From the IMG/VR virus record IMGVR_UViG_3300049477_000297, positions 1 through 36,244 of that record: DNA of 36,244 nucleotides. One strand, 5' to 3'. The translations under genes and the position numbers were made by a program. Source of the DNA: a virus. The notes beneath the pieces are model-generated. The model worked only from the letters and a program-made list of their open reading frames with translations, ran no database searches and was not told the DNA's origin. How positions within the stretch are numbered: position 1 is the first letter of the stretch; every line of letters starts with the position of its first letter. This document shows, one piece after another, positions 9,186 to 31,979 of the stretch.

Positions 9186-9728
9186 ATGGACGTTAAATGC
9201 TCTTTTACTAAAATGGCTGACGTTAATACGTTAGTCCCACATCCGATGAATCCTAACAAACACGGTGAGCGACAAATAGAAATGCTCGCTAAGATTATTA
9301 AGTACCAAGGCTTTAGAAATCCTATCGTCGTATCTAAGCGTTCGGGCTTTATCGTAGCAGGCCACGGTAGATTAATGGCAGCTCATAAATTAGGGTTAAC
9401 AGAAGTGCCAGTTGATGAACAGGATTTTAAAGACGAGGCTGCGGAGTTTTCGCACTTAATTGCGGATAATAAAATTGCTGAGTTAGCCGAGCATGATGAT
9501 AGTGCGATGATCGAGGGCATTAAGACGTTAGGGATAGAGGATTTTGAGCTGCTTGGATTAAAAGACATGAGTTTTTTAACGGCAGACCTAATGCCATTAG
9601 ACGATAAAGAGTTAACAGAATCTTTGGATAAGAAATTTATTATAGAAGTACAATTTCCAAACGATATGGAAATGAATGATATAAAGGACGATTTACTAAG
9701 TCGCGGTTATATCGTTAAGGTAAAATAA
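9186..9728 (+). CDS. ParB/Srx-like nuclease-domain protein (180 aa)
   Basis: Residues 15-75 show the ParB N-terminal pattern: LVPHPMNPNKH, LAKIIKYQGFRNPIVVSK, GFIVAGHGRLMAAHKLG. The GHGR box is the conserved nucleotide- or phosphate-binding motif. A helical segment (FSHLIADNKIAELAEHD), typical of phage ParB-like proteins linked to DNA methyltransferases, follows. The last 40 residues have a ferredoxin-like strand pattern (KKFIIEVQFP). The next gene is an adenine methyltransferase whose ATG overlaps this stop, so the two probably work together in modifying phage DNA (inference). Confidence 0.85.
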   Translation: MDVKCSFTKMADVNTLVPHPMNPNKHGERQIEMLAKIIKYQGFRNPIVVSKRSGFIVAGHGRLMAAHKLGLTEVPVDEQDFKDEAAEFSHLIADNKIAELAEHDDSAMIEGIKTLGIEDFELLGLKDMSFLTADLMPLDDKELTESLDKKFIIEVQFPNDMEMNDIKDDLLSRGYIVKVK

Positions 9729-10672
9729 TGGCAGAATATGGTATCCCATACATGGGCTCTAAAAGCTCAATTTGTAATGAGCTGATTAAGGTATTTCCTA
9801 AGTCCGATAATTTCTATGATCTATTCGGCGGAGGATTTTCAGTAAGTAACGCGATGATTGTTAGGCGTAGTCAAGATTACAAATCATTTCACTTCAATGA
9901 GCTGCGCACTGGTATTTGTGAGTTAATTAAAAAGGCTATTGCTGGTGAGTTTAATTATAATGTGTTTAAGCCTAAATTTATTTCTCGAGAAGAGTTTTTT
10001 GCTAAAGTTGATACAGACGCTTACATAAAATGCCTATGGTCGTTTGGAAATAATGGATCTGCGTACTTATTTTCTAAAGAAATAGAGCCCTACAAAAGAT
10101 CTATGCATAATGCTATTGTGTTAAATGAATTTGATGAGCTGGCCGAGAAAGTATTTGGGTTTAGTGGCTTCGCAGATGGCTATGATATTAAAGATAAGCG
10201 TTTGTTTTTAAGAAATAAGATAGAATATTATCGTAAGACAAAGGTACCAGAGTTTTTGTGGCCCTACTTAGACGAAGAGGCATTGGCCATAGTTAAGCGT
10301 AATAATGAAGTCACTCAATTACGACAACTGGAGCAACTGGAGCGACTGGAGCGACTGGAGTTTTATAATACAAGCTACGACAAAGTGCCTATAAAAGATA
10401 GTTCAGTAATATATTGTGATCCACCCTACGCTGGTACTGCTGAGTATGATGGGCAGTTTAACCACAAGCAATTTTTAGATTGGGCTCATGAGCAAAAAGA
10501 GCCAGTTTTTATTTCTGAGTACAATATCCCAGATAAAAGATTTGAAGCAGTTTTTAAGATTGGCAAAAGGTCTTTGTTGTCATCTGATAAATCAATGAAA
10601 GTTAAAGAAGAGCGAGTTTACGCAAATAATGCTGGTAAAAAAGCATTTATAAAACATGCGATGAGGTTATGA
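9728..10672 (+). CDS. D12-class adenine-specific DNA methyltransferase (314 aa)
   Basis: The N-terminus IPYMGSKSSI matches the conserved start of Dam/D12 N6-adenine methyltransferases. NFYDLFGGGFSVS is the S-adenosylmethionine-binding motif I, and DPPY (231-234) is the catalytic motif. A linker at about residues 197-212 is built from a nine-base tandem repeat (LEQLERLERLE). It probably methylates adenine in phage DNA, either against host restriction or for packaging control (inference). It sits directly before the terminase genes, and its stop overlaps the start region of terS. Target sequence unknown. Confidence 0.88.
   Translation: MAEYGIPYMGSKSSICNELIKVFPKSDNFYDLFGGGFSVSNAMIVRRSQDYKSFHFNELRTGICELIKKAIAGEFNYNVFKPKFISREEFFAKVDTDAYIKCLWSFGNNGSAYLFSKEIEPYKRSMHNAIVLNEFDELAEKVFGFSGFADGYDIKDKRLFLRNKIEYYRKTKVPEFLWPYLDEEALAIVKRNNEVTQLRQLEQLERLERLEFYNTSYDKVPIKDSSVIYCDPPYAGTAEYDGQFNHKQFLDWAHEQKEPVFISEYNIPDKRFEAVFKIGKRSLLSSDKSMKVKEERVYANNAGKKAFIKHAMRL
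10325..10360 (+). repeat. Four 9-base tandem repeats inside the methyltransferase gene
   Basis: The units are CAACTGGAG, CAACTGGAG, CGACTGGAG and CGACTGGAG. Each adds three residues (QLE or RLE) in frame, so gain or loss of units would lengthen or shorten a helical linker just before the DPPY motif without breaking the gene. Confidence 0.9.
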
Positions 10673-11047
10673 TTGGCTAAAATGGGACGACCATTAAAGC
10701 ATATAGATCAAGTTCAGTTTGAAAAGCTGTGCTCAATACTTTGTACGCTAGAGGACATAGCTGGTTTTTTTGATTGTTCTCCAGACACCATAGAGAACTG
10801 GTGCAAAAAAACATATAAAGAGACTTTTTCGGAGACCTATAAAAGAAAATCAGCAGTAGGTAGAGTAAGTTTACGCCGAAAACAATTCGAAATAGCAATG
10901 ACAGGTAATACTACAATGCTAGTATGGCTTGGAAAACAACAGCTAGGTCAACGAGATACATTCCCAGAAGAGTCAACTCAACAACCAATCATACCATCGG
11001 TTTATAAATTACATGTCGCAAATAAGCCTGACTCAGAAGCAGGCTGA
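10673..11047 (+). CDS. terS: Terminase small subunit (124 aa)
   Basis: The start GRPLKHIDQVQFEKLC and LEDIAGFFDCSPDTIENWCK form a helix-turn-helix typical of small terminase subunits, which bind the packaging site. A second helical region with ETYKRKSAVGRVSLRRKQ follows. The TTG at 10673 is chosen because GAGG lies about eight bases upstream; the ATG at 10682 is the alternative. It is followed by terL with a 35-base overlap. The length is usual for the family. Confidence 0.8.
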   Translation: MAKMGRPLKHIDQVQFEKLCSILCTLEDIAGFFDCSPDTIENWCKKTYKETFSETYKRKSAVGRVSLRRKQFEIAMTGNTTMLVWLGKQQLGQRDTFPEESTQQPIIPSVYKLHVANKPDSEAG

Positions 11048-13097
11048 TTTTTTAACAGCCCAAGATTTTGCTACTTTATTTGCTGCCGGTGTAGGCTGCA
11101 TCCATCCTGACACGCCTATAGTCACGGCAGATGGAATAAAAATTGTTTCTGAAATAAAAACTCCACAACTTTATAAAAGTTTAGAGAATGGACGGATTAC
11201 TTTTTCTTTAGGTACTGCTCCGTATTTGAAAGGGCATGGTGATTTATTCCAAGTTGTTCACGAGCGAGGGCAATTTGTTGCCTTCGGATCTCACCTGATC
11301 TTTTCTTCTTCTTATAAGTATGAACGCGTTTGTGATAATCCTCGGGAAGTCCTTTGCGGCCTACAAAATGTTTTCGACCAGCCTTCGACCATTTTGGAAC
11401 TTTGCCTTTCAAAGTTTGACTTAAGTGAGATCCATTGGACTCAAACAGTCGCAAATTGTCTGGATGATTATTTAATTTGTTGCCGTCAATATGGTCTACA
11501 ACCTCTTTTTTCGTTAAATAGCGTCCAAGAATTGATTCCATTACTAGGCGATGCTCTAAAATCCTGCCTCGAGTACGGCCTGGAAGAAGCCTTGCGTTTG
11601 GATGGCCAAAAGGAGCCATTACCAAACAATATCCATCTCGATCAATTATCCGACCATTCTTATAACCAGGATTTCTCTCACCAACTAAACCGCCTGACTT
11701 TAATCTTGGCAGATTCTCTTTTAGCATTAGTCTTTGAACGTATTTTGCTGGGCACAAAGCAATCTTTGCTATATCAGTCGATGAGCGAACCCCATCACAC
11801 AATGATCTTATCAAGTCTTTGTCGTAAATTGGCTTTTTCATTGACCAGAGCGTATTCCGCATCAAAAATATTGTCAATTGAAAGGGTTGGATCTGGTCAC
11901 TATTTTGATTTAAAGGTGGCTAATTCTCACAACTATATTTCTAGCGATGGCGTAATTCATCATAACTCTGGAAAATCTTTTATCGGCAGTCACTGGGCTA
12001 AAGAGAAAATAAATGCCGAGCCTAGAGCACGTGGATTTATTGGTGCTAATACTTATAACCAATTACGAAACGCTACACTTGCTACTTTTTTTGGCGTACT
12101 GGACGAGCACAACATTCGGTACAAGTATAACCAGCAGAGAAATATTATTATGGTTAACGGCACTGTTGTGTATGCGTACTCTCTTGATAACTACCAAAAC
12201 ATTCGAGGTATCGAGATAGGCTGGGGATGGCTAGATGAAACGCGTGACACTCCTAAAGAGGCGTTTGATGTAGTGCTAGGGCGCTTACGAGATAAGCGAG
12301 CTAAGAAGTTAGAGCTTAGGCTTACGTCGAGCCCATGTGGTTACAACTGGCTTTATGATTATTTTGCAGGCCCTCAAAAAAAACCAGGCTATCGAATTGT
12401 ACAAGGTGCGAGCCATGATAATCCTTTTCTGCCAGCGAGTTATGTTGAGAGTTTAAAAGATAGTTACGATGAGAAAATGTACCAGCAGGAAGTGCTAGGA
12501 CTATTCGTAACTACAGGTGTAGGCCAGGTTTATTATTCTTTTAACCGCACGAGAAATGTGATGCCTGTAAAGAGGGAAACTAATTATCCTCTCATGGTCG
12601 GAATGGATTTCAATATTAACCCAATGTCGGCAGTTGTATTTCAGTGCATTGGTCCAGAAATTAGAGTGATAGATGAAATTTCGTTGATGTCGAGCGACAC
12701 TAGTGAGATGGGCAAATTCCTGCTAAATAAATATGGGAGCGTTAGAATTATCCCAGACTCTACTGGTAAGCGTAAGCAAACGAGCAGTAAGGGTTTATCG
12801 GATCATCAGATATTAAAAGATTTAGGACACCAGGTAGTTTACAACGCTAACCCTGCAAGGTTTGATAGATATGTTTGTGTTAATAACTTGCTAGAAAAGG
12901 ATCGGTTAAAGATAGATCCTAAGTGTAAGCATTTAATAGCGGATTTAGAAAAGGTAACTTACAGGGCTGGTACTACGGAGCCTGATAGTACGAGTGATAA
13001 ATCATTGACACACATGAGTGATGCCTTAGGCTATGGATGCTGGTTTTGTTTTCCTGTTATTAAGCACTCTGGTGGAGTTTCAATGGTGGATCGATGA
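11013..13097 (+). CDS. terL: Terminase large subunit precursor interrupted by an intein (694 aa; 404 aa after splicing)
   Basis: The packaging motor has an N-terminal ATPase and a C-terminal RNase H-like nuclease. The intein (residues 29-318) splits the P-loop; joined, the exteins read GVG-SGKSF. Walker B is WGWLDE (D408, E409), followed by the LTSSP coupling motif. The nuclease acidic residues are D532 (GMDFN), D582 (IPDSTG) and D670 (HMSDAL). Splicing is required to form the ATP site, so an unspliced protein should be unable to package. At 404 aa the spliced protein is at the short end for TerL. The gene overlaps terS by 35 bases and has no clear ribosome binding site, so coupling is likely. 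Confidence 0.92.
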   Translation: MSQISLTQKQADFLTAQDFATLFAAGVGCIHPDTPIVTADGIKIVSEIKTPQLYKSLENGRITFSLGTAPYLKGHGDLFQVVHERGQFVAFGSHLIFSSSYKYERVCDNPREVLCGLQNVFDQPSTILELCLSKFDLSEIHWTQTVANCLDDYLICCRQYGLQPLFSLNSVQELIPLLGDALKSCLEYGLEEALRLDGQKEPLPNNIHLDQLSDHSYNQDFSHQLNRLTLILADSLLALVFERILLGTKQSLLYQSMSEPHHTMILSSLCRKLAFSLTRAYSASKILSIERVGSGHYFDLKVANSHNYISSDGVIHHNSGKSFIGSHWAKEKINAEPRARGFIGANTYNQLRNATLATFFGVLDEHNIRYKYNQQRNIIMVNGTVVYAYSLDNYQNIRGIEIGWGWLDETRDTPKEAFDVVLGRLRDKRAKKLELRLTSSPCGYNWLYDYFAGPQKKPGYRIVQGASHDNPFLPASYVESLKDSYDEKMYQQEVLGLFVTTGVGQVYYSFNRTRNVMPVKRETNYPLMVGMDFNINPMSAVVFQCIGPEIRVIDEISLMSSDTSEMGKFLLNKYGSVRIIPDSTGKRKQTSSKGLSDHQILKDLGHQVVYNANPARFDRYVCVNNLLEKDRLKIDPKCKHLIADLEKVTYRAGTTEPDSTSDKSLTHMSDALGYGCWFCFPVIKHSGGVSMVDR
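11097..11966 (+). other. Intein (290 aa) in the TerL Walker A motif
   Basis: The intein runs from C29 to N318, and the first residue of the C-extein is S319. Block A is CIHPDTPIVTADGIKIVSEI. Block B is the region DLFQVVHERGQFVAFGSHL with H94; the Thr usual before the block B His is replaced by Phe91. Block F is HYFDLKVANSHNYISSDG, and block G is VIHHN. The roughly 185 residues between B and F look like no protein domain. They are the complement of an HNH endonuclease gene on the other strand. Splicing by the standard Cys-Asn-Ser pathway is expected. Confidence 0.9.
11197..11841 (-). CDS. HNH homing endonuclease encoded antisense inside the intein (214 aa)
   Basis: An N-terminal helix-turn-helix-like region (residues 8-48, DIAKIALCPAKYVQRLMLKE) precedes an HNH_3 core: GYCLVMAPFGHPNA, ILEHRLVMESILGRYL, VVDHIDGNKLNNHPDNLRLF. 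The key residues are H97, D116, H117, D119, N121 and N129. The C-terminal 45 residues are basic. The start at 11841 is a choice; 11862 (ATG) and 11877 (TTG) are in frame, and none has a good ribosome binding site. TTGACA and TACGCT, 17 bases apart, lie just upstream on the minus strand. Presumed role: cutting intein-free terL so that repair copies the intein (inference from homing biology). Confidence 0.85.
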   Translation of the reverse strand: MKKPIYDKDLIRSLCDGVRSSTDIAKIALCPAKYVQRLMLKENLPRLKSGGLVGERNPGYKNGRIIDRDGYCLVMAPFGHPNARLLPGRTRGRILEHRLVMESILGRYLTKKEVVDHIDGNKLNNHPDNLRLFESNGSHLSQTLKGKVPKWSKAGRKHFVGRKGLPEDYHKRVHTYKKKKRSGEIRRQQIALAREQLGINHHALSNTEQYLKKK

Positions 13098-22910: not shown

Positions 22911-23206
22911 ATGCGAGCTTTTTAGATAAGGCTCGCGTTTGTAGGTTTTATGGATGGGACTCACAATTGGTAGATAAAATGCCTTACTCTGATTTTGTTA
23001 GGTTTTTAAAATCTGCCTATATGCTTGAGTGTCAAGAGGGTTTAGCTCGAGTCCAGCAAAATAATTTCGCTAGCTTTACCGATAAAGCTCGGGAGCAAAT
23101 TACAAGAGACCTAAAAAACGGCTCGACTCATTACATAGCACAAAAAGTTTTAGACTATAAAGAAGTGGTCGCCAATTTAGCAAGGAAGCTACAGCGTGGC
23201 AGATGA
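22671..23206 (+). CDS. Tail assembly chaperone, frameshift fusion (GT-like, 178 aa)
   Basis: A -1 shift at A AAA AAG (22901-22907) joins the first 79 residues to 99 residues read from 22907 in the other frame (VDASFLDKARVCRFYGWDSQ and on). The second frame has no stop between the slippery site and the previously open part from 22967, and it has no ribosome binding site of its own, which supports the fusion. Fusion ratios of this kind are conserved in siphovirus tails. The end overlaps the tape measure start by 11 bases. Confidence 0.85.
22901..22936 (+). promoter_or_regulatory. Programmed -1 frameshift signal
   Basis: The heptamer A AAA AAG (22901-22907) lies in the correct phase (GAA AAA AAG TAG). 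After a five-base spacer, a stem-loop forms from GCGAGC (22913-22918) and GCTCGC (22931-22936) with a 12-base loop. Slippery site, spacer and stem match the known layout of bacterial and phage -1 frameshift sites such as dnaX. Confidence 0.85.
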
Positions 23207-24956
23207 TTCAAAGATCCAAGTAGTAATTGAATTAGATGACGGCTCGATAAAGCAGGGCTTTATCAGAATGGAAAAGGCCGCCGAGGAGTCTGCGGGTAAT
23301 ATCGGTGGATTTTTTAGAAGAGCATCTGAGTTTGCAGCAGGTGTTTTATTAGAGCGAGCGTTTTCTAATTTCTTTTCTTTTTTAAAACAGGGCTTTACCG
23401 AAAGTATTAAGGCCGCAGAAGAGCAGCAAAATGCTATTAATAAGCTAGCTAACTCGCTAGCATCTGCGGGTACGTTTTCTCAAGAGGCTTTAAATAGTTT
23501 TGTTAAATTAGCTGATAGTATTCAAGATACTACAACAGTTCAAGACGATGCGGCGTTATCGCTTGCGGCCTTAGCTCGAAACTACACTCGTACAAATGAG
23601 CAGGCCGAGAGGCTAACAAGAGCAGCGGTTGATTTATCAGCACAGCTAGGGATTGATTTAAACTCAGCGGCTCAGCAAATTGGATCTACGTTTAGTGGAG
23701 TAGTACCAAGGTCTTTAGCTAAAACAGTTCAAGGGCTAAAGGAATTAAGCGTTGACCAACTAAGGGCTGGTGAGGGTGTAGATTTAATTGCTAAGAGATT
23801 TAAGGGTGCTGCCGAGAATGAAGTTAAAACATTTAGTGGAGCACTTACTCAGTTAAAAAATGCATTCGATGATTTAAAAGAGCAGTTTGGAAATTTAGTT
23901 GTTAGAAGTCCTGCGGTGTTAGCTGTATTTAAAACCATAAAGGACGCAGTGGTTTCTGCTAAAAATACGCTTGCGGGATTTAACGCAGGTGACGCTGATA
24001 TATTTAAGCCTTTAACTTTATCTGCAATTAACTTTGCTAAGACTATAAATTTCGCAGTAGTTGTGCCGATTACTATTGCTTTTAATGCGATAAAGATTGT
24101 TTTAAATGATATTTCTCAGGTTATTTTAGCGGTTATTGGAGATGTGGCAGGCTTTGCCGGTAGAGCTGTAGCGTTAGTAGCTCCAAATTCTGCCCTTGCT
24201 CAAGGTCTTATCGGGTTAAAGGATGTAGCAAAAGCCTCGTTTGATGACTTAAGTCTTAGTACTAACTCGGCGCTCGAAAGCATTAACAATGCTTTTGCTG
24301 GTGACGATGCGATAAATAATTTTTTAAATAAAACAAAAGAAAACGTAGAGGCAACGTCTGGCTCATTAAATGTAATGGGAGAAAACGCTAAAAATTCAGC
24401 CAAGGTAGCAGAAACTGCACTTAGTTCTTTAGCTTTAACGGCTAACCAGCTTGGTAATATCGTATCGACAGCTATTAGAAACTCTATTTCTAAATCTATC
24501 CAGTTAGTTGTTTTAAATATTGCTCAGGGTAAAAATGCTTTTGAGGGGCTTCTTAAAACCATAGGAGGCATTTTTGGCGATATGCTTATTACTATTGGTG
24601 AGACGGTTTTGCTAGCAGGTCTTGGTATGGAAGCAATTCGGGCTTCTGTTGTTGGGTTAACTGGTGGACCTGCTATTTTTGCAGGTATTGCACTTATTGC
24701 GGCTGGTACCTTGTTAAAAGCATTATCGGGCGGAGGTGCTGGTGCTGGTGGAGTTCCTACTACTAGTGCGAGTGGTGGAGGATCTACAACTCAACCAATT
24801 AACGAGCCTCAAGTGGTAGACGAAAAGGCCCAGCAACGAGTTGTAGTAAATATCCAAGGTGACGTTTTAGATAACAGAGAGTCGGCACTTCGCATAGTCG
24901 AGCTACTTAACGAGGGCATTGTTGAGCAAGGTGCCGTGATTACGGCGAGGGCATAA
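23196..24956 (+). CDS. Tail tape measure protein (586 aa)
   Basis: Helical and Ala-rich with two central hydrophobic stretches (NFAVVVPITIAFNAIKIVL, and around LAVIGDVAGFAGRAVALV) and a hydrophobic region near the C-terminus (FAGIALIAAGTLLKAL), as in siphovirus tape measures. An early segment, RRASEFAAGVLLERAF, matches the family start. At about 0.15 nm per residue it would set a tail of roughly 90 nm. The GTG start lies inside the end of the GT frame. It is short compared with many tape measures. Confidence 0.85.
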   Translation: MADDSKIQVVIELDDGSIKQGFIRMEKAAEESAGNIGGFFRRASEFAAGVLLERAFSNFFSFLKQGFTESIKAAEEQQNAINKLANSLASAGTFSQEALNSFVKLADSIQDTTTVQDDAALSLAALARNYTRTNEQAERLTRAAVDLSAQLGIDLNSAAQQIGSTFSGVVPRSLAKTVQGLKELSVDQLRAGEGVDLIAKRFKGAAENEVKTFSGALTQLKNAFDDLKEQFGNLVVRSPAVLAVFKTIKDAVVSAKNTLAGFNAGDADIFKPLTLSAINFAKTINFAVVVPITIAFNAIKIVLNDISQVILAVIGDVAGFAGRAVALVAPNSALAQGLIGLKDVAKASFDDLSLSTNSALESINNAFAGDDAINNFLNKTKENVEATSGSLNVMGENAKNSAKVAETALSSLALTANQLGNIVSTAIRNSISKSIQLVVLNIAQGKNAFEGLLKTIGGIFGDMLITIGETVLLAGLGMEAIRASVVGLTGGPAIFAGIALIAAGTLLKALSGGGAGAGGVPTTSASGGGSTTQPINEPQVVDEKAQQRVVVNIQGDVLDNRESALRIVELLNEGIVEQGAVITARA

Positions 24957-29717: not shown

Positions 29718-31979
29718 TTGGCGTTTCAATTAACTCAAAGTGCATTACTGGCAGCTCAGCAGGTACAAAAACAGCCTAACATTGTGCTCGAGATTGATGG
29801 GTTAGATTATCCATTTGGCGCTTTGGCAATTAGACAGTATGTGCGTGTAGGTGATCCAGGGCTTGTTACTGGTGATCCTCAGGTAGATTTATTTGCGTTT
29901 TATGTAGGTGGCTATAATTTAGTTCCTAACCAAGAAAACGTAATTACATTTGATGGCACTACGACTTCGATAAAACAAAGTTTAAATATTGATAAAGGCG
30001 AGTCGGCTTCTATTTCTAACATGGCTATTGCTATGATAGACGACGGCACAATTACAGAGTTAATTACACCAGGGTTAGTGCTCGACGATGTATTACAACG
30101 CAAGTGCCGCGTCTGGATCGGATTTGAGCAGACGGCTTACCCAGACGATTATTTTATTGTGTTTCGAGGGCTGATTACGGACGTAACTTCTGACTCTGGT
30201 AAGGTTACTTTTCAAATTAATTCACCAGAGGATAAGAAACGCTCTAACATTTTTAAAAGTGTTGAGACTAAATTAACTGCTGCAATTACAAACTCACAGA
30301 CCACAATACCGCTTGAGACGGTAGCTAATATTTTAGCTCCAGTTTTAGGTCCTGACTTAACTTACGATAGTTCGTTTGAGGCTTACGTTAAAATAGGCGA
30401 TGATACGTCGTCTGAGCTTGTTAAGTTTACAGGCATAAGTGGACTTGATTTAACTGGGTGTACGAGGGCTGGACTTGCAACGTTAGCTCAGGCTTGGCCT
30501 ATAGATACACAAGTTACAACTTTTTATAGATTAATTGATGACGCTATTCCTTTGGCGCTAAAGCTTTTGTTCTCTGGCACTCAAGGCGATTACGTCGAGG
30601 ATATTCCTATTAGTGCGTTTAACGTAGTAGGTGCTCTTAATATTCCAAATAGTATTTACTGGGCAGGCCGAGACGTAGCAGAGGTTTATGGGATAGTAGT
30701 TGGTGATTACATTACAACTACTGGCTCTGGATTTGGGTCTAATAACGTAAGTTTAAAACGAGTGCTCGAGGTTAATTCAATTACTGGTGGATCTTACATA
30801 TTAGTAGACGGCGTTACGTTTACAGATGAATCGCCAAGTGTAGCCACGATGAGTATTAGATCACAATACGATGTGCTGCCCGATGGATTAAGAATGGGTG
30901 GTGACGAGGTAGACGTAGCTGAGCACTTGTTGCTTTACGGTAGATTTTTATCAAGTGACCAGTACGATATTTATTTAAAAGACACTATAGAAAACGCTAA
31001 GGAATTTTTAGAGCAGAACATTTACTCGCCGATTGCTTGCTACAGTTTGCCTCGTAAATCAAAAGCTAGTGTTGGCTATCACATAGGTCCAATACCAGGC
31101 CAGGACATTACAACACTTAACGATAGCAATGTTAAAAATCCAACCAAGCAGAAATTAAAACGCTCTACAAATAACCAATTTTACAATGAGATTGTTTATA
31201 AGTTCGAAGAGGATGAGCGCACTGATAGGTATTTGTCTAACCTTATTACTATTTCAGCTACATCTAAAAATAGAATTAAGGGCTCTAATAAAACTTTAGT
31301 TATTGAGGCCAAAGGATTTAGAGACGCCACTGGTGGAGAATCAAGGGCTCAGTTACACTCAAATCGTCGTTTAAAGCGGTATGAGTTTGGCGCTGAGGTT
31401 ATTACAGCTTCGGTATTGTTTGAGGTAGGATTTAATTTAGAGATTGGCGACATAGTTATTTACGATGGATCTGATTTAAAGCTACCAGATACAATTTCTG
31501 GTGAGCGTGGGATGAGTCCTCGTTTACTTGAAATTCAAAACAAGGATTTTAACCTACGCACTGGTGATATTTCTTTAGAAATGGTTAACACATCGTTTAG
31601 TACTTCGGCTCGATATTGTTTGATAGGGCACTCTAGCGATATATCTGCTGGTATTTCTACGACTCAGTTTGTGATACAGCCTAGTTATAATTCAAGCTAT
31701 GGTGCTCAGGAATATCGTAAGTGGGAGAATTTAACAAATTGCTCTGTACGGGTGCGCAGTGCTGATCATAGTATTTTAGAGGACACTGTTATCGTTAGCG
31801 CGTCATCAAATACAATTACTGTAAGTCCGGCATTGAGTTTTATTCCTACCGCTGGAATGATAATGGAGAAATCTAGTTATAACGATGCCGATGTGACTGA
31901 ACAAGTTAGCCTTGTCTACTGCCACATGAGTACATTAACTAGCTCAACTTTAAATAATACAGCTTACGCAATGCTGTAA
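29718..31979 (+). CDS. Tail-tip/baseplate protein (753 aa)
   Basis: The first 200 residues have a tail-hub-like pattern (NIVLEIDGLDYPFGALAI, VTFDGTTTSIKQSLNID, FIVFRGLITDVTSDSGK). The middle (ENAKEFLEQNIYSPIAC) and end (LEIGDIVIYDGSD, FNLRTGDISLEMVN) are beta-rich. It is large, without enzyme motifs, and likely the central tip protein. The TTG start follows GAGG. It lies after the lysis cassette, so the tail genes are split into two blocks. Confidence 0.65.
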   Translation: MAFQLTQSALLAAQQVQKQPNIVLEIDGLDYPFGALAIRQYVRVGDPGLVTGDPQVDLFAFYVGGYNLVPNQENVITFDGTTTSIKQSLNIDKGESASISNMAIAMIDDGTITELITPGLVLDDVLQRKCRVWIGFEQTAYPDDYFIVFRGLITDVTSDSGKVTFQINSPEDKKRSNIFKSVETKLTAAITNSQTTIPLETVANILAPVLGPDLTYDSSFEAYVKIGDDTSSELVKFTGISGLDLTGCTRAGLATLAQAWPIDTQVTTFYRLIDDAIPLALKLLFSGTQGDYVEDIPISAFNVVGALNIPNSIYWAGRDVAEVYGIVVGDYITTTGSGFGSNNVSLKRVLEVNSITGGSYILVDGVTFTDESPSVATMSIRSQYDVLPDGLRMGGDEVDVAEHLLLYGRFLSSDQYDIYLKDTIENAKEFLEQNIYSPIACYSLPRKSKASVGYHIGPIPGQDITTLNDSNVKNPTKQKLKRSTNNQFYNEIVYKFEEDERTDRYLSNLITISATSKNRIKGSNKTLVIEAKGFRDATGGESRAQLHSNRRLKRYEFGAEVITASVLFEVGFNLEIGDIVIYDGSDLKLPDTISGERGMSPRLLEIQNKDFNLRTGDISLEMVNTSFSTSARYCLIGHSSDISAGISTTQFVIQPSYNSSYGAQEYRKWENLTNCSVRVRSADHSILEDTVIVSASSNTITVSPALSFIPTAGMIMEKSSYNDADVTEQVSLVYCHMSTLTSSTLNNTAYAML

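Follow-up and report, generated by a model that had tools for sequence, protein, structure and literature searches.

The TerL1 inteins of mycobacteriophages carry a LAGLIDADG nuclease in frame between splicing blocks B and F, and their commonest insertion sites include GK|T (PMC5050341). Separately transcribed antisense homing endonuclease genes have been described in the nuclear group I introns Dsq.L2066 and Dir.S956-2 (PMC9548176), and phage methylases are invaded by the ShiLan domain and by similar hidden HNH insertions (PMC11855218). Here we describe a phage large terminase gene (terL) in which an intein and a predicted HNH nuclease are encoded back to back, on opposite strands of the same DNA. 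The comparison also takes in HNH homing endonucleases of the I-HmuI type, I-HmuI being encoded in a group I intron, and split inteins of the gp41-1 type (fractured genes), in which the gene is physically split and a free-standing endonuclease lies between the halves.

Like the mycobacteriophage TerL1 inteins (PMC5050341), the element has a Hint domain, Cys1 and an HN end, interrupts the ATPase P-loop of a terminase, resides in phages and is patchily distributed, but its nuclease is of the HNH type and has a gene of its own on the opposite strand; the insertion site is GxG|SGK. With Dsq.L2066 and Dir.S956-2 it shares the design of a self-removing element that bears an antisense homing endonuclease gene, although those introns splice as RNA, carry a His-Cys box gene in a peripheral RNA loop with no protein-coding overlap, and occur in eukaryotic rDNA. 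As in ShiLan insertions (PMC11855218), the HNH gene and the invaded phage gene are read in different frames, and that of the phage gene remains open; the ShiLan HNH, however, is on the same strand, has no splicing domain beside it and is not part of an intein. Nucleases of the I-HmuI type have the same HNH core and provide the best structural match of our model, but the present HNH family sits inside inteins. As in gp41-1-type split inteins, nuclease and intein are separate proteins, but the invaded gene described here is unbroken and its coding region overlaps that of the nuclease on the other strand. In the open-licence literature we came across no account of a nuclease gene lying antisense in an intein, and this agrees with the impression in an earlier note on this DNA that no such class had been described. 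A nuclease gene antisense within an intein therefore appears to be new as an arrangement; antisense nuclease genes are already known in group I introns.

The window, that is, the whole stretch of DNA analysed, is an IMG/VR virus record of 36,244 bases. The features of the locus are collected below.

Features of the interrupted terL gene and of the antisense HNH gene (positions in the window)
Feature	Position	Strand	Details
terL (large terminase), intein included	11013..13097	+	single open frame, 694 aa
N-extein of terL	11013-11096	+	
Intein	11097..11966	+	290 codons, C1 to HN290, +1 Ser
Hint domain, N-terminal part	11097..11366	+	aa 1-90; block A (C1) and block B (His66)
Intein linker	11367..11846	+	aa 91-250; mostly disordered (predicted); complement of HNH gene
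Splicing blocks F and G	11847..11966	+	aa 251-290; D271, HHN288-290
C-extein of terL	11967-13097	+	
Antisense HNH endonuclease gene (predicted)	11197..11841	-	214 aa; ATG at position shared with homologous starts
HNH ORF, longer alternative	11197-11877	-	226 aa, from TTG
HTH-like N-terminal segment of HNH protein	11719..11820	-	aa 8-41
HNH_3 catalytic core	11443..11556	-	aa 96-133; Pfam HNH_3; EHRLVMESILGRYLTKKEVVDHIDGNKLNNHPDNLRLF
Possible HNH promoter	11849..11877	-	TTGACA 11877-11872, 17-bp spacer, TACGCT 11854-11849

The interrupted protein belongs to the large terminases, with Pfam matches to Terminase_6N (E 3e-14) and Terminase_3 (E 5e-10) and a PHROG match to phrog_2, terminase large subunit. 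Its insert comprises TerL residues 29-318, begins with Cys, ends with HHN followed by Ser, and divides the Walker A loop (P-loop) as GVG|SGKS. Across 22 inteins the residues C1, T10, G13, S28, G58, H66 and Y75 are invariant in the N-terminal part and D271, Y280, G285, H288, H289 and N290 in the C-terminal part, and the +1 residue is S, T or C among diverse members; Thr63 of block B is replaced by Phe in the window intein. In an AlphaFold model built with 22 diverse homologues, pLDDT is about 75-93 per ten-residue block in aa 1-90 and about 81-94 in aa 251-290, and it lies below 50 throughout the intervening linker (aa 91-250) except around aa 111-130. By this measure the featureless linker is about 160 residues long, shorter than the 'about 185' first estimated from the sequence. 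Within it, the sense frame has no credible protein-family match in Pfam, and an endonuclease domain in the intein frame is absent between blocks B and F.

Because PDB sequence searches with the intein gave just weak C-terminal matches, its likeness to solved inteins was reached through a fold search, in which Foldseek matched the model to DnaE, DnaB and gp41-1 inteins (top matches DnaE and DnaB, E 2e-5, probability 1.00). The Pfam Intein_splicing profile scores 18-20 bits on the C-terminal blocks of the window intein, under the curated cut-off of 35.8, which is exceeded in the related L151, L167, L170 and L173. Judged by its sequence and modelled fold, the terL insert is a class-1-type intein; with the open frame uninterrupted and the intein blocks present, protein splicing is its natural reading, over RNA removal by a group I ribozyme.

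Most of this intein is overlapped by the HNH gene on the opposite strand. The predicted product matches Pfam HNH_3 at 42.7 bits (cut-off 24.8; E 4e-11) and, over nearly its full length, PHROG 10730, 'HNH endonuclease' (E 1.6e-43), so that both profiles give strongly significant HNH matches. The protein belongs to HNH_3, which is why searching the window record for the HNH family PF01844 gave no match; a PDB sequence search with the protein was also empty. Its AlphaFold model has a mean pLDDT of 84, and the best structural match in Foldseek is I-HmuI (1u3e, probability 0.95, E 0.09). The N-terminus is modelled as three helices (H8-14, H21-28 and H32-41) and carries the conserved motif DGxRxSxEIA...KYVQ. 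Core residues H97, D116, H117, D119, N125 and N129 are invariant among 22 homologues; the window protein has all of these catalytic-core invariants and is 54% identical to its homologue L018 over the length, and its C-terminus is shorter than in homologues. The two claims with which the earlier note began, a terL P-loop intein with its nuclease on the opposite strand and an antisense ORF with an HTH-like start and an HNH_3 core, are thus borne out by the Pfam and PHROG matches and the fold models, and the first of them also by the relatives of the element.

An alignment-based search with the HNH protein returned 270 relatives in IMG/VR, the best 80 of which were analysed. All of these best 80 lie antisense within a terL intein, always in the same phase, and each locus has exactly one open antisense frame, which is that of a terL with a P-loop intein. 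The antisense coincidence, with 80 of 80 loci in one phase and their sense frames open, is far beyond chance. When the intein was used as the query instead, 45 loci were found, and pooling both query sets gave 82 distinct clade-1 inteins with an HNH core in the same antisense frame in every one, so an unverified hunch that similar linkers occur in other phage TerL inteins proved correct. The HNH gene is whole in 80 of the 82, and the exceptions, L127 and L141, keep the intein intact.

The arrangement is also present in nine finished phage genomes (seven Pectobacterium phages, Dickeya phage Setonix and Pseudoalteromonas phage PHS3). In bacterial genomes four loci repeat it, and Enterobacter cloacae, Acinetobacter and E. 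coli MEI003 have it in prophages. Because the same structure is found in finished phage and bacterial genomes, a sequencing artefact was rejected. Among more distant HNH proteins (about 36-65% identity), two further scans found the arrangement repeated at 40 of 57 loci. A second, separate clade occupies Terminase_3-type TerLs (GGRG|C...NHN|SGKS); an SNF2-type phage helicase in L170 (1472-3973, minus strand) has an antisense-HNH intein, recognised by Pfam as an intein, in its Walker A loop; and L207 and L209 represent a further host with the same antisense phase. In total, the back-to-back arrangement is found in well above 100 further sequences from phages and prophages. One member of the second clade, L152, has a single sense-frame stop in the linker and an open HNH frame, either a sequencing error or a dead terL. 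That any HNH gene might have an open antisense frame was considered and rejected: in 16 weaker, partial HNH matches (L179-L187 and L199-L205) the intein phase is not open, and none of the three antisense phases of L145 is free of stops. A search of plasmids gave just weak, partial HNH matches.

We consider it very probable that the element is a homing intein that leaves splicing to one gene and cutting to another, the two overlapping in opposite orientation. Translation of terL from the sense strand would run through a Hint domain interrupted by the long disordered linker, and the intein would then excise itself and rejoin the two Walker A halves to give a working TerL. The antisense strand would act as an autonomous gene for an HTH-HNH nuclease, which would cleave terL at its P-loop codons in a co-infecting or resident phage that has no intein there; repair templated on the intein-bearing copy would insert the intein and the nuclease gene together. 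Protein splicing, site-specific cutting and homing or gene conversion are all inferred, and so is the idea that the nuclease is made early or independently.

Candidate signals for separate expression of the nuclease were found among the homologues. A Shine–Dalgarno 4-mer lies upstream of the position-conserved HNH start in 70 of 80 loci, compared with 14% at internal codons, and a strong 5-mer does so in 49 of 80, compared with 3%. A sigma70-type candidate promoter is located on the antisense strand within the coding sequence for intein blocks F and G; in a typical homologue it reads TTGACA-17-TATAAT and ends 26-31 nt upstream of the HNH ATG, and the match is perfect in L076. The best promoter score is 9.09 of 12, compared with 8.12 after synonymous resampling of the sense codons (54 representatives; Wilcoxon p 9e-8). 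Predicted expression signals for the nuclease are therefore conserved in most copies, and with a promoter and ribosome-binding site of its own the nuclease could be produced without late terL transcription, perhaps earlier. Strong late transcription of terL would counteract the antisense nuclease gene.

A promoter scan of the window alone stays at chance level, the signal emerging across homologues only. The window copy has a weak -10 and a promoter-like site just 8 nt from the ATG, and no clear Shine–Dalgarno sequence precedes that ATG; taken with the shorter HNH C-terminus, these features suggest that it may be poorly expressed or decaying. There is accordingly some chance, although we think it unlikely, that the window copy is a decaying remnant, in which the intein still splices since terL is needed and the HNH protein is no longer expressed or active. 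Such a fate would suit the poor signals, the Phe63 in block B and the decay known from L127 and L141, but the whole HNH frame of the window is open, with every catalytic-core invariant and its identity to L018 retained.

For the divided homing intein, the distribution of the element across related genomes is informative. A related phage, L002, with flanks of about 87% nucleotide identity and a TerL protein 98% identical, has an empty site, its TerL reading FAAGVGSGKS without an intein. The element is present in 1 of 5,426 complete E. coli genomes, 418 others matching in the terminase flank only; E. coli ET729, 91.5% identical in that flank, has an uninterrupted terL. The HNH and TerL trees conflict, a shared topology being rejected by the AU test both ways (p < 1e-70): HNH proteins about 56% identical are found in TerLs just about 15% identical, and the reverse contrast also occurs (HNH 61% versus TerL 85% identity). 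The antisense HNH is broken by an internal stop in L127 (4001-4900) and truncated in L141 (4001-4615), both with intact inteins, which fits the expectation for a homing gene that decays while its intein must keep splicing; L127 and L141 are also useful natural controls for splicing without the nuclease. A nuclease encoded inside the element, a patchy distribution and a transfer history separate from that of the host gene together make a homing-type mobility pattern, and the empty terL sites, the tree conflict and the decayed HNH copies would all fit with homing. Between window 11050-11130 and L002 3860-3940, the codons adjacent to the junction differ at 7 of 27 nt, compared with an average of about 11%. 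Donor flank was perhaps carried in, but the signal is weak and the mismatch excess mild, and flank co-conversion is not taken as evidence.

The location of the HNH gene inside a terminase gene invites another reading of its conservation, in which the protein serves as a packaging cofactor and is retained for the sake of phage growth rather than of homing. Terminase-adjacent HNH proteins help packaging, those of the HK97 gp74 type being encoded near terminases. Such aid from HNH proteins beside terminases is also mentioned in PMC11855218. We regard a packaging role as improbable here, because near relatives (L002 and E. coli ET729) have the same TerL without an intein or HNH at the site, and because HNH and intein are inherited together in unrelated TerLs, in conflict with the TerL tree; the gene is also broken or truncated in the two decayed copies, one copy resides in the SNF2 helicase, and the structure that the HNH model matches best is that of the homing nuclease I-HmuI.

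More improbable still is a tolerated in-frame insertion that hides an HNH gene in another frame and does not splice. ShiLan elements, which have no splicing domains, do carry an HNH gene out of frame within a phage gene in this way (PMC11855218), but theirs lies on the same strand and ours is antisense. Here, moreover, the full Hint fold is present, with C1, the block B His, HHN and a +1 Ser/Thr/Cys, and an insert left in Walker A would be expected to abolish ATP hydrolysis.

Constraint was measured on each strand of the overlap, in which HNH codon position 3 is opposite intein position 2. In 26 independent pairs, substitutions in the overlap at intein positions 1/2/3 number 794/1575/687 (position 2 versus 3, p 1e-79), compared with 177/102/773 in the C-extein, the usual coding pattern; for the second clade the counts are 384/778/284 over the linker and 57/38/181 over the intein ends. 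Related loci are not fully independent, which makes the P values optimistic, but all pairs point the same way. The ends of the intein resemble a sense-coding gene and its linker an antisense gene, and aa 16-75, block B included, are slow at all three positions, so that both proteins are conserved there; in clade 1 the HNH overlap reaches into the splicing domain. Stop codons in the intein frame are absent from all 80 loci, compared with about 7.7 per gene expected when synonymous HNH codons are shuffled. The other two antisense phases match expectation (12.2 versus 12.2 and 10.8 versus 10.5, observed versus expected) and so serve as an internal control for this deficit.

These patterns indicate that both strands are under selection. 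The linker is the complement of a nuclease gene, as the earlier note had it, but it is not merely the 'unavoidable reading' of that gene, since its frame is actively kept free of stops. That only one strand is real, the HNH being a chance antisense reading or the sense frame being untranslated and terL simply disrupted, is next to impossible in our view, despite the RefSeq record of E. coli MEI003 with an incomplete terL beside an HNH gene and a PHS3 terL that starts inside the intein, given selection signatures in both frames, recognised folds for both products and invariant key residues in blocks A, B, F and G.

More broadly, inteins with an antisense nuclease are probably a large, old and self-contained mobile class. 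They would descend from one antisense fusion and would have held to a single codon phase as they spread into different TerL families and at least one helicase. The complement of a working intein would encode a full promoter, a ribosome-binding site and the nuclease gene, so that the nuclease could be timed independently of the host gene. This alters the view that the homing nuclease of an intein must be an intein domain. It would also remove two difficulties faced by a nuclease that is housed in a late structural gene, in that the nuclease would be independent of late-gene expression and would need no compatible fold inside the intein. The overlap would be a rare case of a widespread and statistically demonstrable antisense overlap of two functional proteins, one that includes a splicing block and, apparently, a promoter in the coding complement. 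For intein engineers, it points to Hint domains that tolerate roughly 160 disordered residues.

Annotation pipelines that keep only one strand are the likely reason that the arrangement was missed. In the RefSeq E. coli MEI003 genome (L147, 2097-4384), terL is marked incomplete next to an HNH gene because the N-terminal part of the intein was lost to the antisense gene call. The PHS3 record has the HNH gene and a truncated terL that begins inside the intein, and the Pectobacterium phage records have a fused 'hypothetical protein' with no HNH annotated. The two-strand reading thus explains some 'broken' terL annotations (MEI003 and PHS3) and 'hypothetical' fused terminases (Pectobacterium phages).

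Elsewhere in the window, two long ORFs of the late region (23196-24953, 586 aa; 29718-31976, 753 aa) lack a PHROG match at E 1e-5. Upstream of terS, the methyltransferase gene (9728-10672, plus strand) contains a 9-bp in-frame tandem repeat, CAACTGGAG, in four copies at 10325-10360, which encodes QLE/RLE residues. In L002 and especially in L003 the run in this gene is much longer, so repeat number varies among related phages.
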